From positions 1-64,000 of the forward strand of contig NZ_LGEN01000034.1 in NCBI RefSeq assembly GCF_001507855.1: a stretch of DNA of 64,000 nucleotides. The letters are read 5' to 3'. Below, one piece after another: positions 7,028 through 59,826 of this stretch. A model generated the notes under the pieces. That model was not told where the DNA came from. It made no database searches and saw only the letters and a list, made by a program, of their open reading frames with translations. The stretch comes from Halomonas sp. 54_146. GTDB taxonomy: Bacteria; Pseudomonadota; Gammaproteobacteria; Pseudomonadales; Halomonadaceae. Position numbers and translations under genes: made by a program. How positions within the stretch are numbered: position 1 is the stretch's first letter; every line of letters starts with the position of its first letter.

Positions 7028-7060
7028 ACTTAGTCACAAACTTATCCACAAACCGGTCAC
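7028..7060. repeat. 12-bp imperfect tandem repeat in argP-argO spacer
   Basis: Two units, ACTTAGTCACAA (7028-7039) and ACTTATCCACAA (7040-7051), and a degraded third (7052-7060) lie in the divergent spacer, nearer argP. The second unit contains a DnaA-box match. Confidence 0.55.
7042..7050 (+). promoter_or_regulatory. Perfect DnaA-box sequence upstream of argP
   Basis: TTATCCACA is identical to the high-affinity DnaA box. The preceding repeat unit contains a weaker relative, TTAGTCACA (7030-7038). Whether DnaA binds is not known. A 9-mer can occur by chance, but the doublet is notable beside a gene of the IciA/ArgP family. Confidence 0.4.
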
Positions 7061-7235
7061 TGTATTGGGAAAGCTTTCGCAGGCATTACACATCCGCTTA
7101 AACCCGACCTGCCCGCTGTACTTACCCATCATTTCATGAGTAATGCTTATGAGGCATAAATATTATTCGTTAGATTAATAGACAAGCCCGCCTTTATTGT
7201 AAAAAGCTCATTTACCCGCACGAGAGGCACCGAGC

Positions 7236-7847
7236 ATGACACCATCGCTACTGACGGGCTTTGGCATTTCTCTTGGTTTGATTGTTGCCATTGGCGCCCA
7301 AAACGCCTGGGTACTTAATAAAAGTATGCGCCGAGAGTATCCCTGGGTGGTGGCCGCCATTTGCGCCAGCATCGATGCCACTCTGATTACGCTAGGTGTT
7401 TATAGCATCGAGTCGATTCAACAACGGCTGCCCACGCTAGTCCCCGTCATGACATGGCTAGGCATCGCCTTGTTGTGCTGGCTGGGTGGGCAGGCTTTCA
7501 AACGCGCTTGGCAGGGCAACAGTGGTTTATTAACCAGCCAGCAGCGTAGCGTTTATAACGGGTGGCAAATTGCGGGCCAAGCCATTGCTATTTCGCTTCT
7601 CAATCCACATGTCTACTTAGACACCGTTGTGCTTATTGGCAGCGTCGGCGTCCAGCAAGACAACAAGGTTGCGTTCGTGGTGGGAGCCGCTTCTGCATCA
7701 CTGCTGTGGTTTTTCGCCCTGGCAGGATTTGGGCGTTTCCTTGGCCCCAAACTGCAATCACCCCGCGCGTGGCGAATCTTCGACACACTGATTGGCATGA
7801 TTATGCTGCTGGTAGCAGTATCACTTATCCCCGCCACCCACCGTTAA
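7236..7847 (+). CDS. argO: LysE/ArgO-family arginine (lysine) exporter
   Basis: This inner-membrane exporter carries excess basic amino acids out of the cell. The 203-residue protein is almost wholly hydrophobic, with about six membrane segments. It opens with the LysE-family stretch ISLGLIVAIGAQNAWVLNKS and contains the conserved LLNPHVYLDTVVLIGS. The length is typical (about 205). A GAGG ribosome site lies about 9 bases before the ATG. Divergent argP is its likely activator. It converges on fur with a strong bidirectional terminator between. Confidence 0.9.
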   Translation: MTPSLLTGFGISLGLIVAIGAQNAWVLNKSMRREYPWVVAAICASIDATLITLGVYSIESIQQRLPTLVPVMTWLGIALLCWLGGQAFKRAWQGNSGLLTSQQRSVYNGWQIAGQAIAISLLNPHVYLDTVVLIGSVGVQQDNKVAFVVGAASASLLWFFALAGFGRFLGPKLQSPRAWRIFDTLIGMIMLLVAVSLIPATHR

Positions 7848-7870
7848 AACAGCCATTAAACGCTAGATAT

Positions 7871-7920
7871 AAAAAACGCACCCAAGGAGCAAGTTTCACT
7901 GGCTCCCTGGGGGCGTTTTT
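7871..7920. terminator. Bidirectional terminator between argO and fur
   Basis: A long stem runs from AAAAAACGC (7871-7879) to GCGTTTTT (7913-7920), with an imperfect GC-rich middle (GGAGC with GCTCC). It has A and T tracts on both flanks, so it can terminate both convergent genes. Confidence 0.85.
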
Positions 7921-7935
7921 AAGCGCGGCTAACGG

Positions 7936-8388
7936 CTATTTTTTATTGGCCGGGCCACTATCTTGGCGCGTAACGTCCGACCCACGAGGGCGCACGTAAA
8001 GCACAAGGGCGTGATCCACTAGCTCGTAGCCATGCTCTTGGGCTATCTCTTGCTGGCGATGCTCAATGATGTCATCAAGGAATTCGATGATTTCACCGCT
8101 TTCGAGGCACACCATATGGTCATGATGATCCTCTTGGGTCATCTCGAATACCGCGTGGCCGCCGTCAAAATTGTGACGAATAACCAAGCCCGCAGACTCA
8201 AACTGAGTCAGCACGCGGTACACCGTTGCCAAGCCAACATCTTCACCCGCATCAATCAGTGTTTTGTACACTTCTTCCGCGCTGAGGTGGTGCTGGCCCG
8301 AAACATTTTCGAGAATCTGCAGTATCTTGACGCGCGGCAGGGTCACTTTCAGACCAGCTTTGCGTAATTCATGGTTCTGATCGGCCAT
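7936..8388 (-). CDS. fur: Ferric uptake regulator Fur
   Basis: Fur is an Fe2+-dependent repressor of iron-uptake genes. The 150-residue protein has the winged helix in residues 1-80 (sensing helix region LATVYRVLTQFESAGLV) and the HHDH metal site at 88-91. The open frame runs well upstream, but this ATG gives MADQNHELRKAGLKVTLPR, the standard Fur N terminus. Cys94 is present, while the position of the second Cys of the E. coli CxxC is Ser97; some pseudomonad Fur proteins also lack it. It diverges from bamE with 72 bases between starts, a conserved gammaproteobacterial arrangement. Confidence 0.96.
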   Translation of the reverse strand: MADQNHELRKAGLKVTLPRVKILQILENVSGQHHLSAEEVYKTLIDAGEDVGLATVYRVLTQFESAGLVIRHNFDGGHAVFEMTQEDHHDHMVCLESGEIIEFLDDIIEHRQQEIAQEHGYELVDHALVLYVRPRGSDVTRQDSGPANKK

Positions 8389-8460
8389 GGTCGCTCTTCG
8401 CAGTAACAGGTTAGGTCGGGTATGATCAACCGAAACCACGATAGTGAAGAACAGGCCCAA

Positions 8461-8883
8461 ATGCAAAAATTGACTCAAATCATCACACTCTCCGTTGCCC
8501 TGACCGTTATTAGTGGCTGCAGCTACGTTGGTGTGTATAAGCGCGACATTCCCCAAGGTAACTTGGTTACCCAAGAGATGGTCAGCCAGCTTCAGCCCGG
8601 CATGACACAAGAACAGGTCACTTATGTGATGGGCAGGCCGCTGCTGGAGGCTCCTTTCGACGTTAGCCAGTGGGACTATGTGTTCCGTCTCGATAAAGCC
8701 TATGGCGGCGTGGAGCAACGCCGCGTCACGCTCACTTTCGACCCCCAGGGCCGTTTGGTGAACATTGAGCAGGAAGGCGATCTCTCAGCCGAGCTACCGC
8801 TAAAAGGTGAAAGCGGCATGGGGCCGGCAACGGAAGGCGTCGACCCAATGGATGCGCTACCGCAAGATGCGCTACCGCAATAA
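8461..8883 (+). CDS. bamE: Outer membrane assembly lipoprotein BamE (SmpA/OmlA)
   Basis: BamE is a small lipoprotein of the BAM complex, which folds beta-barrel proteins into the outer membrane. The 140-residue product has a lipoprotein signal ending VISGC at Cys20. The BamE core includes QPGMTQEQVTYVMGRPLL and FDVSQWDYVF. The frame is open 13 codons upstream, but the chosen ATG starts the signal peptide. The C terminus is two identical DALPQ units from an in-frame 15-bp tandem duplication. It is divergent from fur. Confidence 0.93.
   Translation: MQKLTQIITLSVALTVISGCSYVGVYKRDIPQGNLVTQEMVSQLQPGMTQEQVTYVMGRPLLEAPFDVSQWDYVFRLDKAYGGVEQRRVTLTFDPQGRLVNIEQEGDLSAELPLKGESGMGPATEGVDPMDALPQDALPQ
8851..8880 (+). 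repeat. 15-bp perfect tandem duplication at the bamE 3' end
   Basis: GATGCGCTACCGCAA occurs twice in a row (8851-8865 and 8866-8880) directly before the TAA stop. It is in frame and adds one extra DALPQ. Confidence 0.9.
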
Positions 8884-8888
8884 AAGCA

Positions 8889-9206
8889 CTAACGCCCCTG
8901 ATCGTTCGCTTGACGCCTTGCGCGCACTAAGCGAGCGGCCTTAGGGTCAATAGCCAACGGTCGATACACTTCCACCCGATCACCTTCGCGTAATAGCTGG
9001 GTCTCGGGGTCGCGCAGGGCTCTACCGAAAATTCCCAACGGCGCTTGCGTGAACGTATCACTAGGCAGTTCAGGAAAGAGCGCTGGCAAATCAGCCAGCA
9101 TGACAGCTTGGCGGGCGGTGGTGCTCTCAGGCACGCTTAACGACACTAAGCGCTGCTTGTGTGGCAGCGCGTAGGCAACCTCAATAATGATACTCTCAGC
9201 GGCCAT
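8889..9206 (-). CDS. rnfH: RnfH family ubiquitin-fold protein
   Basis: This is a 105-residue beta-grasp protein of the RnfH family (UPF0125). It opens MAAESIIIEVAYALPHKQ and ends with the family pattern EGDRVEVYRPLAIDPKAARLVRARR. Its role is unsettled; it is named for Rnf clusters, and ratA-rnfH is elsewhere described as a two-gene unit. I prefer this ATG over one 10 codons upstream because the family starts here. Its start overlaps the ratA stop by 11 bases, suggesting translational coupling. Confidence 0.88.
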   Translation of the reverse strand: MAAESIIIEVAYALPHKQRLVSLSVPESTTARQAVMLADLPALFPELPSDTFTQAPLGIFGRALRDPETQLLREGDRVEVYRPLAIDPKAARLVRARRQANDQGR

Positions 9207-9630
9207 ACAGCTCGCCGGCACGCTTAGTGAAGGCATCTACTAGCTGCCCTGCTATTTGCTGAAAGAGCTTGCCGAATGCCATGCTGAGCAAACGATTGGC
9301 AAATTCAAACTCCATTTCCAGGCTGACTTTGCAGGCATCCTCCCCCATAGGGGTAAACATCCAGCGGCCTTTGAGATGCTTGAAAGGCCCTTTCACTAAC
9401 GACATTTCTATCCGCTCGGGCTCGAAGAGATCATTACGGGTAGTAATTGTTTGTTCAATACCAGCGCGACCTAGGGTCATTTCGCCGATTAGATGCACAG
9501 CATCATGCTCGACCAAGCGCGCCCGACGGCACCCTGGCAGGAACTCTGGGTAACGTTCGAAATCATTGACTAGGTCGAACATTTTCTGGGGGGTGTGCCG
9601 CACTAAGGCGGAACGATTGACGGTTGGCAT
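9196..9630 (-). CDS. ratA: RatA family polyketide-cyclase-like (START) protein
   Basis: This 144-residue START/SRPBCC-fold protein corresponds to E. coli RatA (YfjG), described as interfering with 70S assembly; relatives of this fold (Coq10) bind quinones. The family motifs MFDLVNDFERYPEFLPGC and KGPFKHLKGRW are present. A GGAGAGG ribosome site fits this ATG better than the in-frame ATG 10 codons upstream. It is the first gene of ratA-rnfH and diverges from smpB, the conserved order. Confidence 0.88.
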   Translation of the reverse strand: MPTVNRSALVRHTPQKMFDLVNDFERYPEFLPGCRRARLVEHDAVHLIGEMTLGRAGIEQTITTRNDLFEPERIEMSLVKGPFKHLKGRWMFTPMGEDACKVSLEMEFEFANRLLSMAFGKLFQQIAGQLVDAFTKRAGELYGR

Positions 9631-9754
9631 TGACCTCTCCGCTGACTTCACAGTGCCCAAAGCGTATCATGGGAACATTTTTCAGACCCTAAATGGTATC
9701 ACGCCTCCCCAAATAACAAAGGGGATGCCACTGACAGATTAACTATGAGGTTCC

Positions 9755-10246
9755 ATGGCCACTAAAAAAGGTAAAAGCAAGGGTCCCGGCAGCAGCGTCA
9801 TTGCCCAGAACAAGAAGGCACGGTTTGAGTACCATATTAATGAAACCTTAGAAGCAGGTTTGGTACTCGCCGGTTGGGAAGTGAAAAGCCTGCGCGCCGG
9901 TAAAGCCCAGCTCACCGACACCTATATCCTGGTTCGCAACGGCGAAGCCTTTCTGCTGGGCAGCCATATCATGCCGCTTAACACGGCCAGCACCCATGAA
10001 ATTGCTGACCCAACCCGCACCCGCAAACTGCTGCTACACCGCAAAGAGATCGCCAAAATCTTTTCGGTCACACAGGATAAAGGTCACACCTGTGTGCCTC
10101 TAAAGCTTTATTGGAAACGCAATAAAGTGAAGTGCGAGCTTGCTTTGGTAACCGGTAAACAGCTGCATGACAAACGCGCCACGGAAAAAGATCGCGACTG
10201 GAATCGTCAAAAAGGTCGAATCATGCGGGAACATACCAAGGCTTAA
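9755..10246 (+). CDS. smpB: tmRNA-binding protein SmpB
   Basis: SmpB binds tmRNA and brings it to stalled ribosomes for trans-translation. The 163-residue protein has the OB-fold motifs [13 protein letters not shown] and [16 protein letters not shown] and the basic C-terminal tail [22 protein letters not shown] ribosome site lies 4 bases before the ATG. Its RNA partner ssrA begins 45 bases downstream on the same strand. Confidence 0.97.
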
Positions 10247-10247
10247 C

Positions 10248-10282
10248 TGGTCAATTAGTGGTGAGCACGTTAGAATGCTCAC
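10248..10282 (+). promoter_or_regulatory. Probable ssrA promoter with a 7-bp inverted repeat
   Basis: TGGTCA (10248-10253), a 17-base spacer and TAGAAT (10271-10276) would start transcription near 10283, just before mature tmRNA. The inverted repeat GTGAGCA / TGCTCAC (10261-10267 with 10276-10282) overlaps the -10. It may end smpB mRNA or serve precursor processing. Confidence 0.5.
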
Positions 10283-10291
10283 TTGTAATAA

Positions 10292-10671
10292 GGGGGCGAC
10301 ATGGTTTCGACGCCGGTGACAACCCTTGCGGTGCATGCCGAGAGCGTGATGTATCTCGTAAATCCCACATCACGAAAAATAGTCGCAAATGACGAAAACT
10401 ACGCTCAAGGCGCGCTAGCAGCTTAAACACTGTTAGCTTCTTGTCTGGCTCCAAGGTGATGTGCCTATTCATCACTAAGGGGATATGAGCTAAAGCTGAT
10501 AGGACCGCGGTTGGTGGTGTCTTCTCGCCAATCGTCAAACTTTAGAGGGCTCGCGTGGCTGAATCCTGATCGTCGGAGTCAGTTGCGTTAAAACAAATGA
10601 CGAAATCTAAGCATGTAGAGCCAATAGGCGAGTGCTGGCGGACGCGGGTTCAATTCCCGCCGCCTCCACCA
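10292..10671 (+). ncRNA. ssrA: Transfer-messenger RNA (tmRNA)
   Basis: tmRNA rescues stalled ribosomes and adds a degradation tag. The 5' end GGGGGCG pairs over 7 bp with CGCCTCC near the 3' end, followed by A-CCA, which forms the tRNA-like acceptor. The T-arm GGGTTCAATTCCC (10645-10657) is intact. The tag frame begins at GCA 10385 and ends at TAA 10424-10426, encoding ANDENYAQGALAA after the tRNA-borne Ala. The 380-nt length is normal for a one-piece tmRNA. It follows smpB and a terminator follows it. Confidence 0.97.
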
Positions 10672-10687
10672 CCTTACTATACAAATC

Positions 10688-10712
10688 AAGCACCTACGGG
10701 TGCTTTTTTTGT
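10688..10712 (+). terminator. Intrinsic terminator of ssrA
   Basis: A 7-bp stem, AAGCACC (10688-10694) with GGTGCTT (10699-10705), has loop TACG and is followed by a T run, 17 bases after the CCA end of tmRNA. Confidence 0.92.
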
Positions 10713-10810: not shown

Positions 10811-12526
10811 ATGTCCCTTACTATCAAAGCTCGCCTGATCCTTTTGATCGCCTTTTTAATTGCCCTGATCGCCGTTGTTGGCGGCTTTGGGATACGCGGC
10901 ATGACCGCTATGGACGGCGCCATAGAAACCATTTATGAAGATCGGTTAGTTCCCGTGCAGCAGCTCACCCGCATTGATGAGTTAATGCGTGACAGCATCA
11001 TCGAGCTCAACCAAATCAGCTTGACCCATGAGATCACTAGCGGTGAGCCTGCCAACAGCGCTAACCGTCAGTCCTACTTAGACACCGTAGCCGCTAACAC
11101 TGAGACGATGGAGCAGCTTTGGTCAGCTTATATGGCTACCTTTTTAACCCCCCGCGAGGCCGAGCTGGCCGAGCGCTACACCAACCAGCGCCGCACCTTC
11201 TTCCAGCAGGGCATGGCACCAGCCATCGCTTTCTACGAGGCTGGCAGTATTGATCGCGCGACGACCCATATGGTTGAGGTAGCCCGCCCCGCTTTCATTT
11301 CCGCCAACCAAACGCTGCGCAATTTGATTGACCTGCAAAGCGAAGTAGCACGCGCCGAGTACGCCTCGGCAGAGTCGACGTTTAGTTTTATGCGCTTCCT
11401 AACCGCCACCATGATCATCCTGGCGCTGATCGTTGGCTCCCTAAGCGGCTGGAGGCTGATTCGCGCCATCACCCAACCCCTAGGGCGCATGATTGGCTAC
11501 TTTAAGGCGATTGCCGCCGGCAACCTGAATAACCATATTGAGATCGAACGCCGTGATGAAATCAGCCTTGCCCTTGAATCGCTGAGCGAAATGCAGGTTC
11601 AGCAGCGCGAGCTGGTCGCGCGGATTCAGCACTCTGCCCAAGCTATCCATACCGCCTCCGGCGAGATCTCCTCGGGCAATCACGACCTCTCTCAGCGTAC
11701 GGAAGAGCAGGCCGCAAGCCTTCAGGAAACCGCCACTAGCATGGAGCAGGTTGCCGCAACGGTTAAGCAGAACGCCGACAACACCCGCCAGGCAAACGAA
11801 CTGGTGCGCAGCGCTCGTCAGCTGGCCGATAACGGTGGCGAAAAGACAGCCCAGGCCATGGGCAAGATGCATGAGCTTGAAGAGAGTGCTGCAAAGATCA
11901 GTAGCATTATTTCAGTCATCGACAGCATCGCCTTCCAAACCAACATACTGGCGTTGAACGCCTCAGTGGAAGCCGCCAGGGCAGGAGAACAAGGGCGCGG
12001 CTTTGCCGTGGTCGCCAGCGAAGTTCGCAACCTCGCCCAGCGCTGCGCCACGGCCGCTAAAGAGATCCAGACGCTGGTCACCCTCGACGGTGCGCTGGTC
12101 AAAGACGGGAGCACGTTAGTTCAGCAGGCAGGCGAAGCCATGGAGCAGGTGGTTGGCAGTGTGCGGCAGGTCTCCGAGCTGATGGCAGATATCAACGCTG
12201 CGTCAGAGGAACAGTCCCAGGCGGTGGAGCAAGTCAGCGTGGCGGTTAGCCAAATGGATCAGGTCACTCAGCAAAATGCCACCCTGGTGGAGCAGTCGGC
12301 AGCCGCCGCATCGGCGCTGAAGTCCCAGGCAGATCTCCTGGCCGACACGGTTAGCGCATTTCGCATGAATGATCACGCGACGGGGCTAACATCGAACTCA
12401 GTAATACCGCGCACCCTGGCCACTGCCAACGCCCCTGCCTTCCCGGTAGCAGCGGCTACCCCTGCGCCCCGCGCTAACCGCCAACGCAAAGCAGCAGAGG
12501 CGGAGCCAGAGTGGGAAGCCTTTTAG
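10811..12526 (+). CDS. Methyl-accepting chemotaxis protein
   Basis: This transmembrane chemoreceptor signals to CheA/CheW. In 571 residues it shows a first membrane helix (about 8-28), a periplasmic four-helix-bundle sensor with no recognisable ligand motif, a second helix (about 193-215), a HAMP linker, and the cytoplasmic hairpin with the conserved tip [32 protein letters not shown]. The protein ends EWEAF, an aromatic-x-x-aromatic pentapeptide like NWETF of Tar, which docks CheR/CheB. It is a single gene with no che genes beside it. The ligand is unknown. Confidence 0.93.
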
Positions 12527-12613: not shown

Positions 12614-12693
12614 TTGCGGTCTGTATCGAGCAGGCAGTCATGGCAACGTATAGGCAACAGAAGGCTATCTGCTTAAAAAAGCGGATGAGCAAT

Positions 12694-12747
12694 GCTAAAT
12701 GGAAGGAATATGCCAAATGGAAGAAAGATGCTAAATGGAAGGAATAT
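12694..12747. repeat. 18-bp tandem repeat, three copies
   Basis: GCTAAATGGAAGGAATAT (12694-12711) is repeated exactly at 12730-12747, with a divergent middle copy (12712-12729). It could encode AKWKEY-type hexapeptides in a 64-codon frame (12640-12834), but that frame runs through a terminator-like hairpin and has no ribosome site. I treat it as a spacer repeat. Confidence 0.85.
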
Positions 12748-12766
12748 TTGCTGAAGTCACAAACGC

Positions 12767-16063: not shown

Positions 16064-16115
16064 AACTCGGCGCTGTGGTCATAAGGTGCGTTAATTGATC
16101 AACTGTATGATAAAA

Positions 16116-16157
16116 CTGATGCGACAAAGCTGAGACGGCACGGCTGAGACGACAAGA
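16116..16157. repeat. 14-bp imperfect tandem repeat, three copies
   Basis: The units are CTGATGCGACAAAG (16116-16129), CTGAGACGGCACGG (16130-16143) and CTGAGACGACAAGA (16144-16157), with a possible decayed fourth. They lie in the divergent spacer between the DUF2835 and SprA-related genes. Confidence 0.75.
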
Positions 16158-23068: not shown

Positions 23069-23119
23069 TATCTGTCCAATCAACCTATCTGTCCAATCAA
23101 CCTATCTGTCCAATCACAC
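23069..23119. repeat. 17-bp tandem repeat, three copies, after phnD
   Basis: TATCTGTCCAATCAACC occurs at 23069-23085 and 23086-23102 (identical), and a third copy with a changed end at 23103-23119. It starts 12 bases past the phnD stop. Confidence 0.92.
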
Positions 23120-23131: not shown

Positions 23132-24139
23132 TCAATCGCAGTCGTAAGTCACGCCGTTGGCGTCAGCAATAGTACGAATGACCGACCAATTTTCCTGGTA
23201 GCTAATCGGGATAAACTGCGCTTCGCCAGAGTTGGCAAATTCCGCTTCAAGAGGCGTGCCTTCCCAGTCGTAGCTAAAGAACGCGTTCTGAATGTTTTCG
23301 GCAAGCTCAGGGTGTAAGTTATGTGCCAAACCGTAAGCGGTGGTGGGGAACGTTTCTGAGGTATAGATGATGTTGTAGTCGTTCTCGCTAACCACATCGC
23401 GAGAAACCATGCGCTTTCTCACCGAGTTAGCAATTGCTGCCGCGTCGTAGTCTTTATTGACCACGCCTAAAATCGAGTTGTCGTGAGAGCCAGAGAAAGC
23501 CGTTTCAAACTCTTCGCCCGCTTCCATGCCGTACTCAGAACGCAGCAGCGCAGAAGGCGCGCGGAAACCAGAGTTAGAGGTTTCTGAGGTAAAGGCGAGC
23601 TGGCGACCTTCAAGGTCTTCAACAGAGGCAATACCGCTGCCCGGGTACGTGATGATCTCCATTTCGTAACCGAAGCTGCCGTCTTCAGAGGCCATCATGG
23701 TAAAGGGGCGCAAGCCACCACAGTTCACAGCAACGGGCGTACTACCGGTATTAAAACCGGCGACGTGCAAGCGGCCTGCACGCAGCGCTTCCAGCTGTGC
23801 AGCGTTAGACTGCACTGGGAAAAACTGAACCCGCTTACCTGTTTCTTGTTCCAGATAACGAAGGAAATCAGACCATACGTTGGCGTAAACAGCCGGGTCT
23901 TCTACCGGCGTGTAAGCAAACACTAGCGTATCGGGGTCGACCCATTGAGACGCGTCGCTAGGCACGTCAGCGACCATATCACCATCGTTATCGACATAGC
24001 GCGATGAGAGATCCGCAGAGGCATTCACCGCAGCCAAAGCGAACACACTGGCAACGGCAGCGCTGATAGCAGTACGTGGAGTGAAAGTACGTGGAATAAG
24101 AATACGCGGAAGCGCAAGGAAAAAAGAGGAGGTCTGCAT
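23132..24139 (-). CDS. phnD: Phosphonate/phosphite ABC transporter substrate-binding protein PhnD
   Basis: This periplasmic binding protein for phosphonate-like ligands has 335 residues. An N-terminal signal with an unusual PR-rich stretch ends near residue 42 (AAVNASADL). The PhnD/TauT-fold core follows: LVFAYTPVEDPAVYANVWSDFLRYLEQ, LRAGRLHVAGFNTGSTPVAVNCGG and DYDAAAIANSVRKRM. No C-P lyase or phosphite dehydrogenase genes are in the window, so the true ligand is open. It is first in the phnDCE1E2 operon. A 15-bp tandem repeat lies in the signal-peptide codons. Confidence 0.92.
   Translation of the reverse strand: MQTSSFFLALPRILIPRTFTPRTAISAAVASVFALAAVNASADLSSRYVDNDGDMVADVPSDASQWVDPDTLVFAYTPVEDPAVYANVWSDFLRYLEQETGKRVQFFPVQSNAAQLEALRAGRLHVAGFNTGSTPVAVNCGGLRPFTMMASEDGSFGYEMEIITYPGSGIASVEDLEGRQLAFTSETSNSGFRAPSALLRSEYGMEAGEEFETAFSGSHDNSILGVVNKDYDAAAIANSVRKRMVSRDVVSENDYNIIYTSETFPTTAYGLAHNLHPELAENIQNAFFSYDWEGTPLEAEFANSGEAQFIPISYQENWSVIRTIADANGVTYDCD
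24072..24116 (-). repeat. 15-bp in-frame tandem repeat in the phnD signal peptide
   Basis: Three 15-bp units (24072-24086, 24087-24101, 24102-24116) encode successive LPRIL-IPRTF-TPRTA peptides near the N terminus of PhnD. The units share the core TACGTGGA / TACGCGGA on the plus strand. Confidence 0.8.
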
Positions 24140-25998: not shown

Positions 25999-26035
25999 GT
26001 AACGGCGGTCCTATCCCTACGTCTTGTTTACAAGC

Positions 26036-26082
26036 GCTGTCTGTAAGAGCTGTCTCTAAGAACTGTCTCTAAGAACTATCTG
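26036..26082. repeat. 13-bp imperfect tandem repeat, 3.5 copies
   Basis: The units are GCTGTCTGTAAGA (26036-26048), GCTGTCTCTAAGA (26049-26061), ACTGTCTCTAAGA (26062-26074) and a partial fourth. They are placed 38 bases upstream of the EAL-CBS-GGDDF gene. Confidence 0.85.
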
Positions 26083-30439: not shown

Positions 30440-30473
30440 GTTCCGCAAGGACTTTTGTTCCACAAGGACTTTT
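30440..30473 (+). repeat. 17-bp tandem duplication ending at a start codon
   Basis: GTTCCGCAAGGACTTTT (30440-30456) and GTTCCACAAGGACTTTT (30457-30473) abut the ATG of the transglycosylase pseudogene. Each unit carries a candidate AAGGA ribosome site, so the ribosome site is doubled. Confidence 0.85.
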
Positions 30474-31092
30474 ATGCGCCATCCTGTTGATCGTTTCGCC
30501 ACACGCTCTTCTTCTGTGCCCACCACGCTGCGGCGATGGGGAATCTTGAGCGTTGCGCTGCTGCTCTCTGGCTGCGCCACGTTTGCGCCCAACCCGCCGC
30601 AGGATCAAAGCAATATCTGCGAGATATTCCGCGAGCAGCCTAGCTGGTACGACTATGCCCGTGAGTCACAAGAAAAGTGGGGCACACCGATTGCAACGCA
30701 AATGTCGTTTATCCAGCAGGAGTCTTCGTTTCGCAGCCACGTGCGGCCTGATCGCAAGCGCTATCTAGGCTTTATTCCTGGCCCACGGCCCTCTTCCGCC
30801 AAAGGCTACGCCCAGGCTCAAGACCCGGTGTGGGGCGAATACCAAGACCAAGCCGGCAGCCTGTTTGCCCGGCGCACTCATATGAAACACGCCACGGATT
30901 TTATCGGCTGGTACAACCGAAGGCGCAGGCGGCTACCAACGGGGCACTTACCGCAATAAACCCCATGTACTGCGGGCGGGCAGCCAAGTGTCAGCCCGTG
31001 CTAACCGCTACCAAGCCCAGCTCAACAGCTGCGAAGCGGAGTTTCAGTGCCGCAAGTTTTATCAGGTATGGCCGTTTTGTCGCGGCGGTTGA
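30474..31092 (+). pseudogene. Broken lytic transglycosylase (SLT domain) lipoprotein gene
   Basis: Frame 1 (30474-30959) encodes a lipoprotein signal ending LLLSGC, then an SLT-type core with QQESSFRSH (probable catalytic Glu) and FARRTHMKHATDFIGWYN. After 30917 the reading switches to the +1 frame, which continues EGAGGYQRGTYRNKPHVLRA and ends at TGA 31090-31092. Intact relatives have about 20 residues between the WY and HEG motifs, so a short out-of-frame internal deletion at about 30917 is likely. The frame-1 product would end in an abnormal RRRRRLPTGHLPQ tail. Confidence 0.82.
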
Positions 31093-31127: not shown

Positions 31128-31172
31128 ACTTCATCTATAACTACTTCACCTATAACTACTCCACCTATAGCT
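31128..31172. repeat. 15-bp tandem repeat, three copies
   Basis: The units are ACTTCATCTATAACT (31128-31142), ACTTCACCTATAACT (31143-31157) and ACTCCACCTATAGCT (31158-31172). They lie between the transglycosylase pseudogene and the OYE gene. Confidence 0.9.
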
Positions 31173-31263
31173 ATTAGCGATAAAGGTGGTTGGCACTCAC
31201 TAGTAAACTGGTCTATTCTGTTTGCCATTGTTCAACTGACCGCATTCAAAAGGAGCTTACTTG

Positions 31264-33984: not shown

Positions 33985-34587
33985 ATGGATTACACATCGC
34001 TTGCCATTGTGCTTGCCAGCTTATCGCTGCTGTTGGGAGTAATAGCAGCCTTCATCTTTGTTTACATTATTATGCCCAAGCGGCGGCGGGCGAAGGCAAA
34101 GGCTGCAACGCCACCTACGCCGCCGGTCACGAAAACATCTTCTACGCCAGCACCACCGCCAGACGCGCCGAGCGCTAGCGCTAGCAAAACGTCGAGCAAG
34201 ACCAAACAGCACGCACTGTTCGTTATTTTCGCCCACCCAGATATGACCACCGATGAACGCCTGACCGAATGGTTAAGGGGCAAGAGCGCCCACTACGACG
34301 CTCTCAAGAAGGTGTTTTTAATCGATGGTCAGCAGCCGTCTAACCCCATCACGGTGGCCAACGCCTTTCCGCCGGGTGAAATGCCAGACCTGCTGCGCGG
34401 GGAAACCCATAAGCCCATTCAAGGTATTAGCCTGTTGGTGAAACCGCCGCTACGTAAGCGGCGCAATCAACAGATGCATGTCTATGTGGAACTCGCCAAA
34501 GAGATGCAGGCGCTGTTTAGCGGTGAGATGCTTGATGCCGAGCGCGAACCCGCGACCGATGTCACCTACCAACGCATTATCGGTTAA
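33985..34587 (+). CDS. Membrane-anchored protein with ZipA C-terminal-like domain
   Basis: The 200-residue protein has one N-terminal membrane helix (about 6-30), a basic patch KRRRAKAK, a Pro/Ser/Thr/Ala-rich linker (about 38-70), and a globular C domain from about 73 (HALFVIFAHPDMTTDERLTEWL ... QGISLLVKPPLRKRRNQQMHVYVELAKEMQALFSGEMLDAEREPATDVTYQRI). This order and the C-domain pattern resemble ZipA, which tethers FtsZ, but the protein is much shorter and not beside ligA. It could be a paralogue with another partner. It lies between the TnpB element and ybiT. Confidence 0.6.
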   Translation: MDYTSLAIVLASLSLLLGVIAAFIFVYIIMPKRRRAKAKAATPPTPPVTKTSSTPAPPPDAPSASASKTSSKTKQHALFVIFAHPDMTTDERLTEWLRGKSAHYDALKKVFLIDGQQPSNPITVANAFPPGEMPDLLRGETHKPIQGISLLVKPPLRKRRNQQMHVYVELAKEMQALFSGEMLDAEREPATDVTYQRIIG

Positions 34588-34604
34588 GCCCGTTTGGCTT
34601 ATAC

Positions 34605-34646
34605 GATGCCTTGGTTAACCGACGCCTTGGTTAACCGATGCCTTGG
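34605..34646. repeat. 16-bp tandem repeat across the ybiT stop codon
   Basis: GATGCCTTGGTTAACC (34605-34620), GACGCCTTGGTTAACC (34621-34636) and a partial third copy GATGCCTTGG (34637-34646). On the minus strand the ybiT stop (34631-34633) and its last codons (GIG) fall within these copies, so the 3' end of the gene is echoed downstream. Confidence 0.9.
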
Positions 34647-36220
34647 CTGCGCAGGTAGTCGTCGTAGCTGCCGCTGAAATCGACAATACCTTCTGGCTGC
34701 ATATCGATAATGCGCGTGGCTAGCGATGAAACGAACTCGCGGTCGTGGCTGACAAACACCAGCGTGCCGGGGTAGTTTTCCAAGGCCAGGTTCAATGCCT
34801 CGATAGATTCCATATCCAGGTGATTGGTCGGTTCATCCATCAGCATTACGTTGGGCTGAGTAAGGATTAACTTACCAAACAGCATGCGCCCCTGCTCGCC
34901 ACCGGAAATCACCTTCACCGATTTGCCGATGTCATCGCTGGAAAACAGCATCCGCCCCAGGGCACCGCGCACCACCTGTTCGCCGCCGTTGGTCCAGCCC
35001 GACATCCATTCAAACAGCGTGGCGTCGACCGCAAAATCATCGCTGTGATCCTGAGCAAACACGCCTACCTCAGCGGCTTCGGTCCACTTCACTTCACCGG
35101 CATCCGGGTGTAGCTCGCCCGCCAAGGTTTTCAGCAGCGTGGTTTTGCCAATGCCGTTGGGGCCGATAATCGCAATGCGCTCGCCGGCTTCAACGGTCAT
35201 GGATAACCGCTCAAACAGAGGCTTCTCGCCGTCGTAGCTCTTGGTAATGGCGTCCACATTCACCGCGTTACGGTGAATTTTCTTGGCCTGATCAAAACGA
35301 ATAAACGGGCTAACGCGGCTAGAAGGTTTGATATCTTCCAGCTTGATTTTATCGATTTGGCGCGCCCGCGACGTGGCCTGCTTGGCCTTCGAGGCATTGG
35401 CGCTGAAGCGGCTAACAAACTGCTGCAGTTCGGCGATTTGCGCCTTTTTCTTGGCATTATCCGAGTGCTGGCGCTCGCGGGCAGCGGTGGCGGCCATCAT
35501 GTAATCATCGTAATTGCCGGGGAACAGGGTAATTTCGCCGTAGTCCAGATCCGCCATATGCGTGCAAACGCTGTTCAGGAAGTGACGGTCGTGGGAGATG
35601 ATAATCATGGTGCTGCTGCGCGCTTTAAGAATATCTTCCAGCCAGCGGATGGTGTTGATATCCAGGTGGTTGGTCGGCTCATCCAGCAGCAGGACATCCG
35701 GGTCAGAGAACAGCGCCTGAGCCAGCAGCACGCGCAGTTTCCAGCCGGGCGATACTTCGCTCATTGGGCCGGTGTGCTGCTCAATGGGAATACCCAAGCC
35801 CAGCAATAGCTCACCCGCGCGGGACTCAGCGGTGTAGCCGTCAAGCTCGGCAAAGCGCACTTCCAGATCAGCAACGGCCATGCCGTCTTCTTCGCTCATT
35901 TCTGCCAGCGAGTAAATGCGCTCGCGCTCGGCAGCGACCGACCACAGCTCGACATTGCCCATGATCACGGTATCGATCACGCGCTCATTTTCAAACGCAA
36001 ACTGGTCCTGGCGCAGCTTACCCAACCGCGTGCTGCTATCCAGCATCACCTGGCCGGAAGAGGGCTCCAAATCGCCACCAAGAATTTTCATAAAGGTGGA
36101 TTTGCCGCAGCCGTTCGCGCCGATCAGGCCGTAACGGTTGCCGTTATTGAATTTAACAGAGACATTTTCAAACAGGGGCTTGGCCCCAAACTGCATGGTG
36201 ATATTGGCGGTTGCGATCAC
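34631..36220 (-). CDS. ybiT: ABC-F family ATPase YbiT
   Basis: This is a soluble ABC-F protein, a ribosome-associated translation factor class with two ABC domains and no membrane part. The 529-residue sequence follows E. coli YbiT nearly end to end: [22 protein letters not shown], Walker [10 protein letters not shown] and GPNGIGKTT, signatures [14 protein letters not shown] and [12 protein letters not shown], and two DEPTNHLD Walker B motifs. The linker (about 240-300) is rich in Lys/Ala/Gln. The stop codon lies inside a tandem repeat, and a second repeat (36244-36288) lies just upstream. Confidence 0.93.
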
Positions 36221-36243
36221 AAAAGGAGCCCTGGTTAGCGCGT

Positions 36244-36288
36244 AGCTTATAACAAAGAAGCTTATAGCAAAGAGGTTTATAACAAAGA
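36244..36288. repeat. 15-bp tandem repeat, three copies, upstream of ybiT
   Basis: The units are AGCTTATAACAAAGA (36244-36258), AGCTTATAGCAAAGA (36259-36273) and GGTTTATAACAAAGA (36274-36288). They begin 23 bases upstream of the ybiT start codon. Confidence 0.9.
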
Positions 36289-36339
36289 GAAAGGTTGGCG
36301 ATTCTACGCGCTATTTGGCCTGTATTCACCCATCAGACT

Positions 36340-37203: not shown

Positions 37204-37255
37204 GTCTGTCTCCCAAGTGACCGCCCATGCCATGATAAGATGAGCATTTTGCGAA

Positions 37256-37307
37256 GCTTAATACCGATGCTTGATACTGATGTTTGATACCGATGCTTGA
37301 TACTACA
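37256..37307 (+). repeat. 13-bp tandem repeat, four copies, across the chaC start
   Basis: The units are GCTTAATACCGAT (37256), GCTTGATACTGAT (37269), GTTTGATACCGAT (37282) and GCTTGATACTACA (37295-37307). Three ATGs arise at unit junctions; because 13 is not a multiple of 3 they fall in different frames. The last one (37293) opens the ChaC-like frame. Confidence 0.92.
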
Positions 37308-38394: not shown

Positions 38395-38480
38395 TGCCTT
38401 CGCTTTGCACAAAATGAGTGCAAATGATGACAAGATGTACTGAATATGCAAATGACTATCGATCATGCCTGAGATGAAAC

Positions 38481-38550
38481 TGGCTCAAGGACGTTAGCTC
38501 AAGAACGATATGACTCAAAAACGGTATAGCTCAAGAACGACAGCTCAGCG
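38481..38550. repeat. 16-bp imperfect tandem repeat, about 4.5 copies
   Basis: The units are TGGCTCAAGGACGT, TAGCTCAAGAACGATA, TGACTCAAAAACGGTA, TAGCTCAAGAACGAC and a partial fifth. They lie in the spacer between the HPP gene and the small membrane gene, 15 bases before a second, unrelated repeat. Confidence 0.8.
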
Positions 38551-38564
38551 GCAAGAGCACCCTT

Positions 38565-38615
38565 AGTATTCGTTACATCACAGTATTCGCAACATCACAG
38601 TATTCGTTACATCAT
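38565..38615. repeat. 17-bp tandem repeat, three copies, across a stop codon
   Basis: AGTATTCGTTACATCAC (38565-38581), AGTATTCGCAACATCAC (38582-38598) and AGTATTCGTTACATCAT (38599-38615). The third copy contains the TAA stop (38607-38609) and last two codons (Met-Met) of the minus-strand membrane gene. The other two are echoes in its 3' untranslated region. Confidence 0.93.
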
Positions 38616-39880: not shown

Positions 39881-39897
39881 TTGCTCAATCCTTGTTG

Positions 39898-39954
39898 CTA
39901 AAACCTTTTTTTCTAATTCTCTTTTTCTAACCCCCCTTTTCTAAACCCCTACCG
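39898..39954. repeat. 14-15-bp repeat, four copies, spanning the phoX stop codon
   Basis: CTA trinucleotides recur at 39898, 39913, 39927 and 39941, each followed by a similar C/T-rich tract. The copy at 39941-39943 is the phoX stop (TAG on the minus strand). The minus strand therefore shows four TTAG-type units in a row, three of them after the stop. Confidence 0.75.
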
Positions 39955-49936: not shown

Positions 49937-49972
49937 GCGGCGCTTATAAAACAGAAGAGCTAATAAACGCGA

Positions 49973-52170
<2,198 letters not shown>

Positions 52171-52290: not shown

Positions 52291-52390
52291 CTTCACTTCT
52301 TCATCTAATCCTTTACTTACCCATCTATTCTTTCGCTTACTTATCTACTCTTTCACTTACGTATCTAATGCTTTTCTTACTAACCTAATA
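52291..52390. repeat. 20-bp imperfect tandem repeat, five copies, upstream of katG
   Basis: The units start at 52291, 52311, 52331, 52351 and 52371; examples are CTTTACTTACCCATCTATTC, TTTCGCTTACTTATCTACTC and TTTCACTTACGTATCTAATG. The common pattern is YTTNRCTTAC-N-YATCTANTS. They lie in the 368-base spacer between the ABC exporter end and the katG start. A shorter TCTTGGCTG triplication (52182-52215) is nearer katG. I see no OxyR site or gene in the rest of the spacer. Confidence 0.9.
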
Positions 52391-54398: not shown

Positions 54399-54412
54399 CG
54401 ATTTAGCTGTTG

Positions 54413-54438
54413 CTATGAACGCTAGCCATAAACGCTAG
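54413..54438. repeat. 13-bp tandem duplication across the pntB stop codon
   Basis: On the minus strand CTAGCGTTTATGG is followed directly by CTAGCGTTCATAG. The first unit contains the pntB TAG stop (54435-54437) and the second repeats it in the untranslated region. Confidence 0.85.
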
Positions 54439-55877: not shown

Positions 55878-55893
55878 ATCGTCTCTCCGCCGC

Positions 55894-57465
55894 TTAGGAT
55901 TTTTGGAACATGGCCAGCATCCGGCGTGTCACCAGGAAGCCACCCACGATATTAATTGACGCGATAAGCACCGAGATCGCCGCCAGCACGCTAACCACCG
56001 CGCTACCCGAGCCAATCTGCAGAATCGCCCCCAAAATAATGATGCCCGAAATCGCGTTAGTCACCGCCATTAAAGGCGTATGCAGCGAGTGGCTGACTTT
56101 CCAAATAACCTGGAAGCCGATAAAGCAGGCCAGCACAAAGACAATAAAGTGCTGCATAAACGACGCCGGTGCCACTTGGCCCAGCAGCAGCATCAGCGCG
56201 CCACCCACGGCCAACATCGTCACCTGGCGCTTGGTTTGCGCTTTAAAGGTGGCAAGTTCTGCGGCTTTTTTCTCTTCTGGCGTGGGTTCTTTTTCTTTCT
56301 TCTTTGGCTTAGCGGCAGCAATCGCCTTCACTTTGGGCGGCGGCGGTGGGAAGGTGACTTCGCCCTGGTGAGTCACCGTGGCACCGCGAATCACGTCGTC
56401 TTCCATGTTGTGATGAATCACGCCGTCTTTTTCGGGCGTCAGGTCAGTCAACATATGGCGAATGTTGGTGGCGTAAAGTAGCGACGCCTGCGTTGCCATG
56501 CGCGAGGGGAAATCGGTGTAGCCGATAACCACCACGCCGTTATCGCTAACGACCCGCTCGTCTGGCTTGGTCAGGTCGCAGTTGCCGCCCTTCTCGGCGG
56601 CTAAGTCGATCACCACCGAACCTGGCTTCATCGCCGCGACCATATCTTCCAGCCACAGTTTGGGCGCGGGACGGCCAGGAATCAGCGCCGTGGTAATCAC
56701 GATATCGACATCGGCTGCCTGCTCGCGGAAGCACTCAAGCTGCTTTTCGCGAAACTCCGGGCTTGAGGGCGAGGCGTAGCCACCGCTTTCAGCGCCGTCC
56801 TGGCTGTCTTCGAAATCGAGAAACAGGAACTCAGCGCCCATGGACTCAATCTGCTCAGAGACCTCGGGGCGCACGTCGAAGGCGCGTACTACTGCGCCCA
56901 GGCTGGTCGCGGTACCAATTGCGGCCAAGCCTGCCACACCGGCACCAATCACCAGCACTTTGGCGGGGGGCACTTTGCCGGCAGCGGTTACCTGGCCGGT
57001 AAAGAAGCGGCCAAAGTTATTGCCCGCCTCAATTACCGCGCGGTAGCCCGCGATATTGGCCATTGAGGAGAGCGCGTCCATCTTCTGCGCCCGGGAAATA
57101 CGCGGCACCATGTCCATGGCGATAACGGTAGCGCCCTGAGCCTTGCACTTTTCCAGCAGCGCTTCGTTTTGCGCCGGCCAGAAAAAGGCGATCAACGTTT
57201 GGCCTTTGCGTAGCCGCTCGGCTTCTTGATCAGAGGGCTCGCGGACTTTAATGACCACCTCAGCGTCGCGCCAGAGCGCGTCGGCACCGTCTACAACGGT
57301 AACGCCGGCCTCACGATAAGTGTCGTCATTAAAGCCCGCCGCGAGGCCAGCGCCGGTTTCCACCAAGCACTCGTGGCCCAGCTTTTGCAGCTGCTTAGCG
57401 CTCTCAGGGGTCAGCGCGACACGCGCTTCCCCCCGAGCACTTTCTTTCGGTGCACCTATTTTCAC
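55894..57465 (-). CDS. pntA: NAD(P) transhydrogenase subunit alpha
   Basis: PntA binds NAD(H) in domain I and contributes four membrane helices. The 523-residue protein opens [22 protein letters not shown] and has the Rossmann motif [22 protein letters not shown] and the mobile-loop region of the family. A Lys/Glu/Pro-rich linker follows ([16 protein letters not shown], near 385-400), then the C-terminal helices. It is encoded as a single full-length subunit, as in enterobacteria. It is first of the pntAB operon. The 289-base spacer upstream has no clear motif. Confidence 0.97.
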
Positions 57466-57754
57466 TCGTGTTCTCCTTTTATTAATTTTTCTGACTCGCC
57501 CAGGCCAAGCTGTGCGTTCAACACCTTTCGCGGCGTCATACGTTTAGCAGTCTAGGATCTAACGGGGTACCCGCCAGTGACCATTCAACCTTTGATTGCA
57601 CTAGGTTGTTTAACTACTACATAACTTACATAGCTACATGTCTACCTAGCGGTATGGCTACACGAAGGCATAAACACACAAGTACACACGCTGGCCTGTG
57701 CAGTATCACGCCTGATGATTAACTCCCCCTTAATGGCCATAGCGCTTTTAGTAG

Positions 57755-58687
57755 TCAAACCCTTTGATGACCAAACTCCCTGGCAAACTCAGTCAGTACA
57801 TCATAAAGCCATACGTTGGCAGGGTCATTGGCAAACAGTCCATGCTGAATCAACGTCATTTTCAGCGCGGGAAGCGCCAATGGCGGCTCCACCATGCGTA
57901 CCGGCAACATCATCACAAAACGCTCCGCCATTTGCCGTGGCAGCGTCATGATCGCCTCGGTCAGCGCGACCACCCTGGCAGCCGCGATATAATTGAGGTT
58001 CTTGGAAATCACGCGACGGGTTAAGCCGTGCTGCACCAAGCAGCTATCAATATTGCTAGGCCGCAGGCCGCTAATGTCCGCAAGCTCCACGTGAAGCTCC
58101 CGAGCAAACTGGGCAATATCCAGCGCATCGCCTACGCGTTCATTATGAGTAGCCACCAGGCAGACCAATTCCTCATCCATCCACGGTGTTTGTATCACCC
58201 CGCTGGGCAGGGTGCTTTGGCTGTCTAGCCCGACCACCATATCGACCTGGCGCTGCTCTAGCCCTTCGCTCAATACATCGGGGGTAATTAACTCAATGGA
58301 AAAACTAATCCCCGGCGCATAGGCCAACAGCTGGCTGAGAAAAGGCGGGTACATCACCTCTTCAAAGTAATCCGTGGTGGCGAGCGTAAAGCGGCGCGTG
58401 CTGTTGGCGGGTGAAAACGCCGCCGGCGGTGCAAGCCCCTGTTGCAGCTGAGCAAGCGCCTGTTGCACCACCGGCAGCAGCGCCAATGCACGGGGCGTTG
58501 GCTGCATACCGTTTTCGGTACGAATCAGCAGCGGGTCATCCAGCGATTCCCGCAGGCGTTTAAGCGCATGGCTTAAGGCGGGCTGGCTTAAGTGCAGCTT
58601 TTCTGCCGCCCGCGTTACGTGACGCTCGCGCATCAGCGTTTCAAACACCAGCAATAAATTAAGATCAAAATGACGTAGCGAGCGCAT
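57755..58687 (-). CDS. LysR-type transcriptional regulator
   Basis: This 310-residue LysR protein has an N-terminal helix-turn-helix (LLLVFETLMRERHVTRAAEKLHLSQPALSHALKRLRESL) followed by a periplasmic-binding-protein-like effector domain. The RHFDLNLL opening and the LSQPALSHAL helix are of the NodD/LeuO type. It diverges from the agmatinase gene across a short spacer that contains a perfect palindrome of LysR type, so control of speB is likely but inferred. Confidence 0.9.
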   Translation of the reverse strand: MRSLRHFDLNLLLVFETLMRERHVTRAAEKLHLSQPALSHALKRLRESLDDPLLIRTENGMQPTPRALALLPVVQQALAQLQQGLAPPAAFSPANSTRRFTLATTDYFEEVMYPPFLSQLLAYAPGISFSIELITPDVLSEGLEQRQVDMVVGLDSQSTLPSGVIQTPWMDEELVCLVATHNERVGDALDIAQFARELHVELADISGLRPSNIDSCLVQHGLTRRVISKNLNYIAAARVVALTEAIMTLPRQMAERFVMMLPVRMVEPPLALPALKMTLIQHGLFANDPANVWLYDVLTEFAREFGHQRV

Positions 58688-58695
58688 AAACCCTC

Positions 58696-58716
58696 ATCAT
58701 TCATATCACGAATGAT
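58696..58716. promoter_or_regulatory. Palindromic LysR-type operator candidate
   Basis: ATCATTC-N7-GAATGAT (58696-58702 with 58710-58716) is a perfect 7-bp inverted repeat containing T-N11-A. It lies 9 bases before the LysR start, in the divergent spacer with speB. Autoregulation and joint control of speB are the natural reading. Confidence 0.6.
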
Positions 58717-58837
58717 TAAATTCTAAACATTCATTTAATTAATCACCAGGAATTGCTTATTGTCTGCCGCTTATTCGCCCACCCGCGACTATCCGCGGCT
58801 ATCCGCGACAGTCCAGCACGCAAGGAGAAACACGACG

Positions 58838-59767
58838 GTGACCCACCCACACGCAGCCACTCACACCATGCCCAGCCTTTATGGGGATGTGATTTCCACC
58901 TTTATGGGCGTTGCGAAAGCAACAGACCCCAAGGCAACCGACGCCGATGTGGTGGTGAGTGGCGTGCCCTTTGACCTTGCGTGCTCTGGCCGTGCGGGCA
59001 CCCGCATGGGGCCGAATGCTATTCGCCAAAGCACCGCTAATTTGATCTGGGAAGGCAAGCGCTGGCCGTGGGATTTCGCCTTAGAAGAGCGCCTCAAGGT
59101 GTGCGATGCAGGCAACGTTGATTACGCCTACGGCGAGCCGGAAAGCCTGGTCGATAACCTGGAAACCCACGCCAACCGCTGGTTAAAAGCGGGTAAAAAA
59201 ATGCTGACCCTGGGGGGCGACCACTACATCAGCCTGCCGCTGCTGCGCGCCCATGCCCGCGAGCACGGCCCGCTGGCGCTGATCCATTTTGATGCGCACA
59301 CCGACACCTACGAGCAAGGCACGCGCTTCGACCACGGTACGATTTTCTACCACGCCTTGAAAGAAGGCTTAGTAGTGCCGGAGCACTCACTGCAAATTGG
59401 CATTCGCACCAGCTACGACCGTCACAACCACCCCTATCCAGTGCTGGATGCAGATTGGGTTAACGACCACGGTGCCGCTGCGGTGCTGGAACGCATTCGC
59501 GCCCGCGTAGGCCATCACCCGGCCTACGTGAGCCTGGACATCGACGGCCTAGACCCCGCTTACGCCCCAGGCACCGGCACACCGGTGTGCGGCGGTATGT
59601 CGACCGACCTGATGCTGAAAGTAATTCGCGGCATGGTGGGCATGGAGCTGGTCGGTATGGATGTAGTGGAAGTGAACCCCGCCTATGATCACGGCGACAT
59701 CACATCGCTTGCCGCAGCCACCCTGGGGCTGGAGTTTTTGTATACGTTGGCGGCGTCTAAAGTCTAA
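58838..59767 (+). CDS. speB: Agmatinase / ureohydrolase SpeB
   Basis: This Mn2+ ureohydrolase is predicted to split agmatine (or a related guanidino compound such as guanidinobutyrate) into urea and a polyamine precursor. The 309-residue protein has all arginase-fold metal motifs: LGGDHYISLPL, IHFDAHTDTY and SLDIDGLDPAYAPGTGTP. I choose the GTG preceded by AGGAG at 10 bases; a TTG 26 codons upstream is open but gives an unlike N terminus, and an ATG 10 codons later is another option. A tandem repeat starts 5 bases after the stop. Confidence 0.88.
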   Translation: MTHPHAATHTMPSLYGDVISTFMGVAKATDPKATDADVVVSGVPFDLACSGRAGTRMGPNAIRQSTANLIWEGKRWPWDFALEERLKVCDAGNVDYAYGEPESLVDNLETHANRWLKAGKKMLTLGGDHYISLPLLRAHAREHGPLALIHFDAHTDTYEQGTRFDHGTIFYHALKEGLVVPEHSLQIGIRTSYDRHNHPYPVLDADWVNDHGAAAVLERIRARVGHHPAYVSLDIDGLDPAYAPGTGTPVCGGMSTDLMLKVIRGMVGMELVGMDVVEVNPAYDHGDITSLAAATLGLEFLYTLAASKV

Positions 59768-59772
59768 ATAAG

Positions 59773-59826
59773 CATAGCAGTGCTCATGAACATAACAGTA
59801 CTCGTAGACATAGCAGCGCTCATGAG
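59773..59826. repeat. 18-bp imperfect tandem repeat, three copies, after speB
   Basis: The units are CATAGCAGTGCTCATGAA (59773-59790), CATAACAGTACTCGTAGA (59791-59808) and CATAGCAGCGCTCATGAG (59809-59826). They start right after the speB stop (59765-59767). Confidence 0.9.

Follow-up and report, generated by a model that had tools for sequence, protein, structure and literature searches.

What kind of process leaves short tandem repeats at one place after another along a stretch of bacterial DNA, with a different unit at each place? This question was raised by a window of 64,000 nucleotides (the whole stretch of DNA that was analysed) from Halomonas sp. 54_146, positions 1 to 64,000 of contig NZ_LGEN01000034.1 in assembly GCF_001507855.1. 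A preliminary description of the window had listed 19 coordinates with imperfect tandem repeats and attributed them to a single local process of duplication, with point divergence afterwards. The window lies within contig C67 (71,870 bases) of the source genome, which comprises 3.56 Mb in 90 contigs and is called G000 here. Minisatellites, or variable-number tandem repeats (VNTR), are tandem repeats with units of about 10-100 bp, and the G000 arrays have units of this size. From the sequence comparisons reported here, the arrays are probably young and ageing minisatellites made by a size-gated tandem-duplication process, which would be genus-wide and raised in this genome, and they are probably neither a functional nor a mobile element.

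Tandem arrays and their unit size

We ran an ungapped self-match scan on all 19 coordinates, with 300 random 120-bp draws from pooled spacer letters as the null. Scores ranged from 9.0 to 31, with a null 99th percentile of 8.5 and a null maximum of 11.5. All 19 loci exceeded the percentile and 17 exceeded the maximum, which bore out the tandem repeats of the preliminary description; the two loci under the maximum, 59773 (11.0) and 54413 (9.0), were weak, and 54413, taken alone, is not convincing. Tandem Repeats Finder (TRF; score at least 50, period 10-25) reported 14 arrays in the window, 13 of them called non-coding by a simple longest-open-reading-frame (ORF) rule that makes some errors, such as at the 8851 array, which is inside a BamE gene. 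The 41 window spacers (7.6 kb) held 11 TRF arrays, against a mean of 0.02 and a maximum of 1 in dinucleotide shuffles (n=200); shuffled spacers had been named in advance as the control that could undo the pattern.

The pattern extended beyond the window. In a sample of 1.08 Mb, about 30% of G000, TRF reported 222 arrays; 138 of these lay for the most part in the 103 kb of spacer outside called genes, and the other 84 chiefly within genes. An ungapped lag scan of the same sample at lags 2-60 gave 224 segments versus 12.8 per shuffle, and the segments were concentrated in a narrow range of lags: 2 at lag 10, 0 at 11, 12 at 12, 29 at 13, 23 at 14, 25 at 15, 23 at 16, 24 at 17, 10 at 18 and 6 at 19, then a tail. 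Because a two-copy repeat below lag 10 is unable to reach the score, the lower size edge is firm from lag 10 only; lags 2-6 contributed 5 of the 224 segments, although two-copy repeats so short cannot be scored. Perfect two-copy duplications in spacers numbered 0 at 10 or 11 bp, 3-6 at each size from 12 to 17 bp and 0 at 18 bp. These counts support a unit size that appears tightly bounded at about 12-18 bp.

The preliminary description had placed the repeats almost only in spacers or at gene ends. The spacer bias held, and the arrays at 34604, 37252 and 38565 overlap called gene ends while the repeats at 39881-39949, 49972-50024 and 54412-54438 overlap ORF ends, but the confinement did not, given in-frame arrays at 8851 and 24071 and a coding excess of periods divisible by three. 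The density of coding arrays of period 12, 15 or 18 was 62.6 per Mb over 975 kb of G000, compared with 8.5 over 1,295 kb of other Vreelandella-like sequences; other halomonads had 20.7 and the outgroup set had 12.8. For period 21 or 24 the four values, in the same order, were 12.3, 5.4, 32.0 and 15.0. Among G000 arrays lying more than 90% inside genes, the period was divisible by three in 73 of 82. Because coding arrays are in excess with such periods, the spacer bias would largely result from selection against frameshifts. Coding insertions relative to orthologs were found at L103:15611 (+54, +54 and +53 bp) and L102:8152 (+18 bp). The highest copy number among the coding arrays listed (60 of 61) belonged to L131:12129 on contig C40, with 10.5 copies of a 15-bp unit.

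Convergent spacers of G000 carried 30 arrays in 12.7 kb and divergent ones 26 in 23.5 kb, and the spacer arrays showed no orientation relative to genes. In a hairpin test, neither palindromic 4-mers nor inverted pairs were in excess in the arrays. Array dispersion across the sampled stretches was 1.5. We noticed that contigs C70, C80 and C60:1-40000 (L106, L139, L107, L105 and L118) had no spacer arrays where about 14 were expected, a set picked post hoc. L106 carries IS1380 and plasmid-like pieces, and L105 had no match in the plasmid set; because of the content of L106, the array-poor stretches may be recently gained DNA, which we take as a post-hoc hint only.

Orthologous places and density in relatives

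Array length was compared with relatives between matched flanking sequences. For 13 of the 15 spacer arrays with a usable ortholog, all or most comparisons showed the G000 array to be the longer one. At 23069, the orthologous place was 50-52 bp shorter in all five relative loci (three genomes), and at 36244 several relatives held one stretch matching AGCTTACAACGAATAG where G000 held three. The 14-mer of L103:3353 was present in 0 copies in G006, 0 in G010, 1 in G041, 2 in G008 (by eye) and 3.6 in G000 (TRF), and the 13-mer of L103:5424 was absent from G008, single in G041, degenerate in G006 (about 2.5 copies by eye) and present in 8.4 copies in G000. Measured as whole spacers, 36220-36339 of G000 exceeded 26 of 29 relative loci in length, 34587-34630 exceeded 6 of 9 (9 of 11 in the flank comparison) and L143:15650 exceeded the single one compared. 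The spacer with the 13-bp G000 array at 37252 holds, in G006, an 18-bp array of unrelated sequence. No relative matched G000 in both array and copy number at any of the orthologous spacers examined, so the conserved loci and copies that would have spoken for functional sites were not encountered. These comparisons support insertions that were apparently built from local sequence at orthologous places, in keeping with the local duplication and subsequent divergence proposed earlier.

Two further observations were made at orthologous places. The spacer between genes that we take to be glmU and glmS from their protein starts (L103:19031-19433; L245, L246, L251 and L252) varied among all five species compared, both in its length and in what it contains; TRF arrays are present there in G000 and G010, and degenerate stretches resembling TTTTARAACAGTTA are visible in G000. 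Orthologs of parts of the window and of L102 were located on a 1.83-Mb 'plasmid' of Halomonas sp. PA16-9 (NZ_CP040452.1; L286, L293 and L294), which may, because of them, be chromosomal sequence labelled as a plasmid.

We compared densities with Vreelandella and Halomonas species, as the preliminary description had proposed; the genus search spanned 82 genomes including G000. For arrays of 12-18 bp, density was expressed as the number per kb of spacer, and 95% Poisson limits are given in parentheses. G000 had 146 arrays in 115.2 kb, or 1.27 per kb (1.07-1.49). Other Vreelandella-like sequences (78 loci) had 72 in 194.4 kb, or 0.37 per kb (0.29-0.47), and their array sizes peaked at 13-16 bp, the same sizes as in G000. 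Other halomonads (30 loci) had 9 in 53.7 kb, or 0.17 per kb (0.08-0.32), which is an upper figure because some of their 14-bp arrays are doubled heptamers. Outside the family, 22 loci including two 50-kb pieces of E. coli K-12 had 3 in 51.9 kb, or 0.06 per kb (0.01-0.17). The comparison sets are phylogenetically unbalanced, several loci come from single genomes, and 'Halomonas sp.' or unnamed loci were placed in the Vreelandella-like set by us. Single 22-kb loci are too small for ranking species, and G001, with 8 arrays in 8.1 kb, may have a high density as well. Judged from these sequences, the duplication process looks like a genus trait at lower density that is raised in the G000 lineage, where it would be about three times (spacers) to seven times (coding) more visible than across Vreelandella.

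Units at different loci had been described as unrelated, and this was mostly so: in samples of 4,000 pairs each, 1.9% of real unit pairs and 1.0% of shuffled ones scored at least 8. The earlier view that the repeats are not a dispersed family, an insertion sequence remnant or clustered regularly interspaced short palindromic repeats (CRISPR) stood; unlike in CRISPR, the copies are head to tail with no unique spacers between them. What the earlier wording missed was a weak shared motif, roughly AAAAYAGYTNTTAA, over-represented in G000 spacer units, for which models beat shuffled sets; AGCTAT was present in 15 of 138 units versus 1.2 expected. A model trained on G000 spacer arrays scored above GC-matched G000 windows in 51 units of other Vreelandella-like sequences (p = 2e-5) and, with a small effect, in 61 G000 coding units (p = 7e-5). 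The motif was not raised in array-free spacers (AGCTATT 20 versus 20.2 expected) and was not clearly better conserved between array copies. We read it as a preference that the duplicating process would have, and not as a binding site. A GCCA boundary motif, seen by eye beside clean duplications, was rejected when the full set of 211 arrays gave 20 on the right and 15 on the left versus an expected 17.3 per side; other flank k-mers, such as AAGGA, were somewhat enriched in the same test.

Array loci of the window

Most of the arrays in the window are in spacers. The first is a 12-bp array of about 2.7 copies at 7019-7053 (lag score 13.0), followed by an 18-bp array of 3.1 copies at 12692-12747. 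A 14-bp degenerate array at 16109-16154 had a lag score of 12.0 and was unreported by TRF at score 30. Further along are a 17-bp array of 2.8 perfect copies at 23069-23116, a 13-bp array of 3.5 copies at 26032-26081, a 15-bp array of 3.1 copies at 31128-31173 and a 15-bp array of 3 copies at 36244-36289. The 13-bp array at 37252-37303 (4 copies) overlaps a called gene start. A 14-16 bp degenerate array of about 4.4 copies at 38483-38547 is adjoined by a 17-bp array of 2.9 copies at 38565-38614. A 20-bp array of about 4 copies spans 52291-52380, and an 18-bp array of 2.9 degenerate copies spans 59773-59825 (score 11.0).

Two arrays are in frame inside genes. At 8851-8880 (plus strand), a perfect 15-bp duplication of 2 copies forms the C-terminus of the BamE-family ORF 8422-8883 (DALPQ-DALPQ-stop); this array was called non-coding by the simple ORF caller. 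At 24071-24111 (minus strand), a 15-bp array of 2.6 copies is near the N-terminus of a phosphonate-binding-protein gene. A 17-bp duplication at 30440-30473 is immediately 5' of the ATG at 30474. Its end abuts the ATG, and an AAGGA ribosome-binding-like stretch is doubled in it, giving two tandem candidate sites.

The remaining repeats are at gene or ORF ends: a 16-bp array of 2.7 copies overlapping a gene 3' end at 34604-34646, overlapping 13- and 19-bp repeats at 49972-50024 (scores 11.5 and 13.0), and a 13-bp pair at 54412-54438, the weakest locus (score 9.0, under the largest null score). A 14-bp degenerate array at 39881-39949 overlaps the phoX 3' end. We noticed that seven-base repeats, for example (GAGCTTC)n and (CTTCCAG)n, occur in other halomonads: in 5 of 30 loci (L049, L055, L056, L064 and L067; around 12,000-12,300) they are found where phoX ends or a little downstream of it, and they are also present in L045, L047, L068 and L075. 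The units of the 14-bp array in the phoX-end spacer of the window differ from these heptamers, and this spacer may tolerate or attract repeats as a possible shared hotspot.

Origin of the arrays

The duplication in place, the size window, the point divergence and the frame bias are features that the sequences support, and from them we propose the following course of events. About 12-18 bp of any local sequence would be duplicated in place, with a mild preference for AAAAYAGYTNTTAA-like sites and apparently little junction homology. Some pairs would expand to 3-8 copies, which is what replication slippage from one copy to another would give, and ordinary point mutation would make the copies diverge. 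Selection would then purge frameshifts, so that survivors would be in spacers, densest where genes converge, or would keep the frame inside genes. For the enzymology, displaced-strand mis-joining at a repair or Okazaki-fragment patch, with a flap-type signature like that of yeast rad27 mutants, is our tentative preference.

The junctions were analysed in perfect duplications with clean ends (23 of 59); 4 were set aside as nearly three copies and 19 were used. Seven of the 19 had no homology and 2 had at least 3 bp, with a mean of 1.2 bp compared with 0.67 by chance, so that junction homology is apparently small in these 19 filtered cases. In 107 indel-free G000 spacer arrays, adjacent copies were 87.7% identical, with 212 transitions and 80 transversions; the corresponding counts were 128 and 75 in G000 coding arrays and 62 and 51 in other Vreelandella arrays. 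Error-prone copying was considered and dropped: the ratio of 212 to 80 looked high beside fourfold sites, yet the spacers of the relatives G008 and G041 gave 81 transitions and 38 transversions over 838 columns (this pair only). A general point mutator was also rejected, with G000 substitution distances not above those of relatives (5,631 sites).

Candidate genes were searched for Ku, 5'-nuclease, MutS, reverse transcriptase, ATP-dependent ligase and Cas1. G000 had no match to Ku or to ATP-dependent ligase, the pair looked for as a sign of fill-in by non-homologous end joining, and among the relatives searched both were present in G002. Each of 16 same-genus genomes including G000 had a single 5'-nuclease match; because of this, the lack of a second 5'-nuclease, presumably of the Xni type, is not specific to G000. 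Two distinct Cas1 matches in G000 (C45:29741-30622 and C60:6106-6714) were also noted, suggesting that the genome carries two CRISPR-Cas loci.

Several results weigh against the proposed course of events. The flank comparison, one part of which used looser flank limits, was mixed at 37252, and L143:16491 was 12 bp shorter in G000. Whole-spacer lengths were mixed, with a median best-ortholog difference of -5 bp for five array-bearing spacers, and G000 was longer than just 5 of 17 relative loci at 37233-37283 and just 11 of 28 at 38466-38606. In 3 of 5 coding TRF hits with orthologs, the length was unchanged. No same-species strain was among the 82 genus genomes, where the best long match was about 85% identical DNA, and the G000 figures come from the sample that covers about 30% of its sequence. 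Survivorship could partly explain the lower bound at 12 bp. The motif effect in coding units was small (0.15 versus 0.09 at score 6 and no effect at score 8), and 15 units from other halomonads showed no rise in the motif. Among 31 unfiltered perfect spacer duplications, 17 had junction homology of at least 3 bp, some of these being third-copy remnants, and many arrays end in a partial copy; the unfiltered set and the terminal partial copies leave room for junction homology. PolA is full length in G000 with what we take, from E. coli PolA, to be its 5'-nuclease motifs, and does not show the loss of flap nuclease; MutS is present and intact, unlike in a mismatch-repair mutator. The search tied no gene to the process among the six kinds named above, with RecJ, ExoI, ExoVII and RNase H, among others, outside it.

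Other mechanisms of duplication have to be weighed against flap mis-joining. In classical slipped-strand mispairing, the nascent strand would slip back 12-18 nt onto microhomology and recopy the unit, at a rate raised here by a replication or repair defect. The growth to 3-8 copies fits such slippage, as do the terminal partial copies and the junction extensions of the unfiltered spacer duplications, but the filtered junctions, few of which have homology of 3 bp or more, do not; slippage should also favour shorter units, which is at odds with the near absence of segments at lags 10 and 11, and MutS is intact with no long substitution branch for G000. We regard slippage as possible, though less likely than flap mis-joining. 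Staggered nicks 12-18 bp apart on opposite strands, followed by fill-in and rejoining, would explain the little homology in filtered junctions, the sharp size window and the sequence preference in two test sets, if a size-setting enzyme with a loose AAYAGYT preference (a nickase, transposase-like or integrase-like) were at work. The unmatched Ku and ATP-dependent ligase make this unlikely; the Cas1 and reverse-transcriptase matches bear no evident relation to density and are also present in several relatives, whose array densities are poorly measured, and the one candidate boundary motif tested was not shared. A related and slightly less likely idea is that Vreelandella might encode an enzyme, or a pathway of repair, that loosely prefers AAYAGYT-type sites, is itself limited to 12-18 bp and makes homology-poor duplications in place, and that its activity is turned up in this lineage.

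Readings without a duplication process of this kind fare worse. Functional sites, for protein binding or as RNA, that selection maintains near genes would account for the weak common motif, for arrays that adjoin ribosome-binding-like sites (30440 and upstream of glmS) and for the repeats that recur downstream of phoX in other halomonads. The motif is unenriched outside arrays and not clearly better conserved between copies, however, and the arrays are without orientation, are densest in convergent spacers, differ between species and are in excess inside genes too, so that functional sites are very improbable. About as improbable, or marginally more so, is a dispersed degenerate tandem-repeat family copied between loci, in the manner of miniature elements or small dispersed repeats. 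Different loci of G000, G008 and G041 do share similar 13-bp units (AATAGC-CTTTG type), but units resemble each other only about twice as often as shuffled ones do, and orthologous places show growth out of local single copies.

Among known systems, the arrays resemble bacterial minisatellites and VNTR loci in their short tandem units, many of them in spacers, and in copy numbers that differ between relatives. In PMC2884548, units of at least 20 bp at 90% identity were scored and 18 of 1,037 variable E. coli loci were labelled minisatellites; the present arrays differ in occurring at about 1.3 per kb of spacer with units mostly of 12-18 bp. The nearest described signature is that of yeast without Rad27 (FEN1), as described in PMC5677150: repeat changes at hotspots are biased to insertion, including a 16-bp unit with two to four copies that rests on an 8-bp repeat, insertions take the form ABA to ABABA (A of 1-21 bp, B of 1-91 bp), and older work cited there found duplications on direct repeats of 3-12 bp. 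The present arrays differ from it in their narrow sizes, in the apparently small junction homology of the filtered set and in the presence of PolA 5'-nuclease motifs. The TAACTGA direct repeats of Beggiatoaceae, as described in PMC4679880, are also abundant intergenic tandems in one bacterial lineage, with two to six copies, but they are one fixed heptamer mostly near start codons, whereas the 12-18 bp units here are specific to their locus and show no such placement. REPIN, REP and other small dispersed repeats, the last as outlined in PMC2884548, are likewise short repeats in bacterial spacers; they are copies of shared units, whereas the units here vary by locus and have no palindrome excess.

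Tandem arrays as such are known; new are their density, the narrow size window, the contrast between lineages and the matching coding signal. In accord with the preliminary description, which knew of no report in halomonads, no account of the pattern for Halomonas or Vreelandella was found among the literature matches listed, which cover open-licence literature with most subscription journals outside it. The birth of bacterial minisatellites is hard to observe because new ones are usually rare. With more than one size-gated array per kb of spacer in G000 and about one third of that in congeners, this lineage contrast makes the birth step testable. The in-frame duplications of 4-6 residues alter proteins, and the arrays would serve as strain-typing markers.

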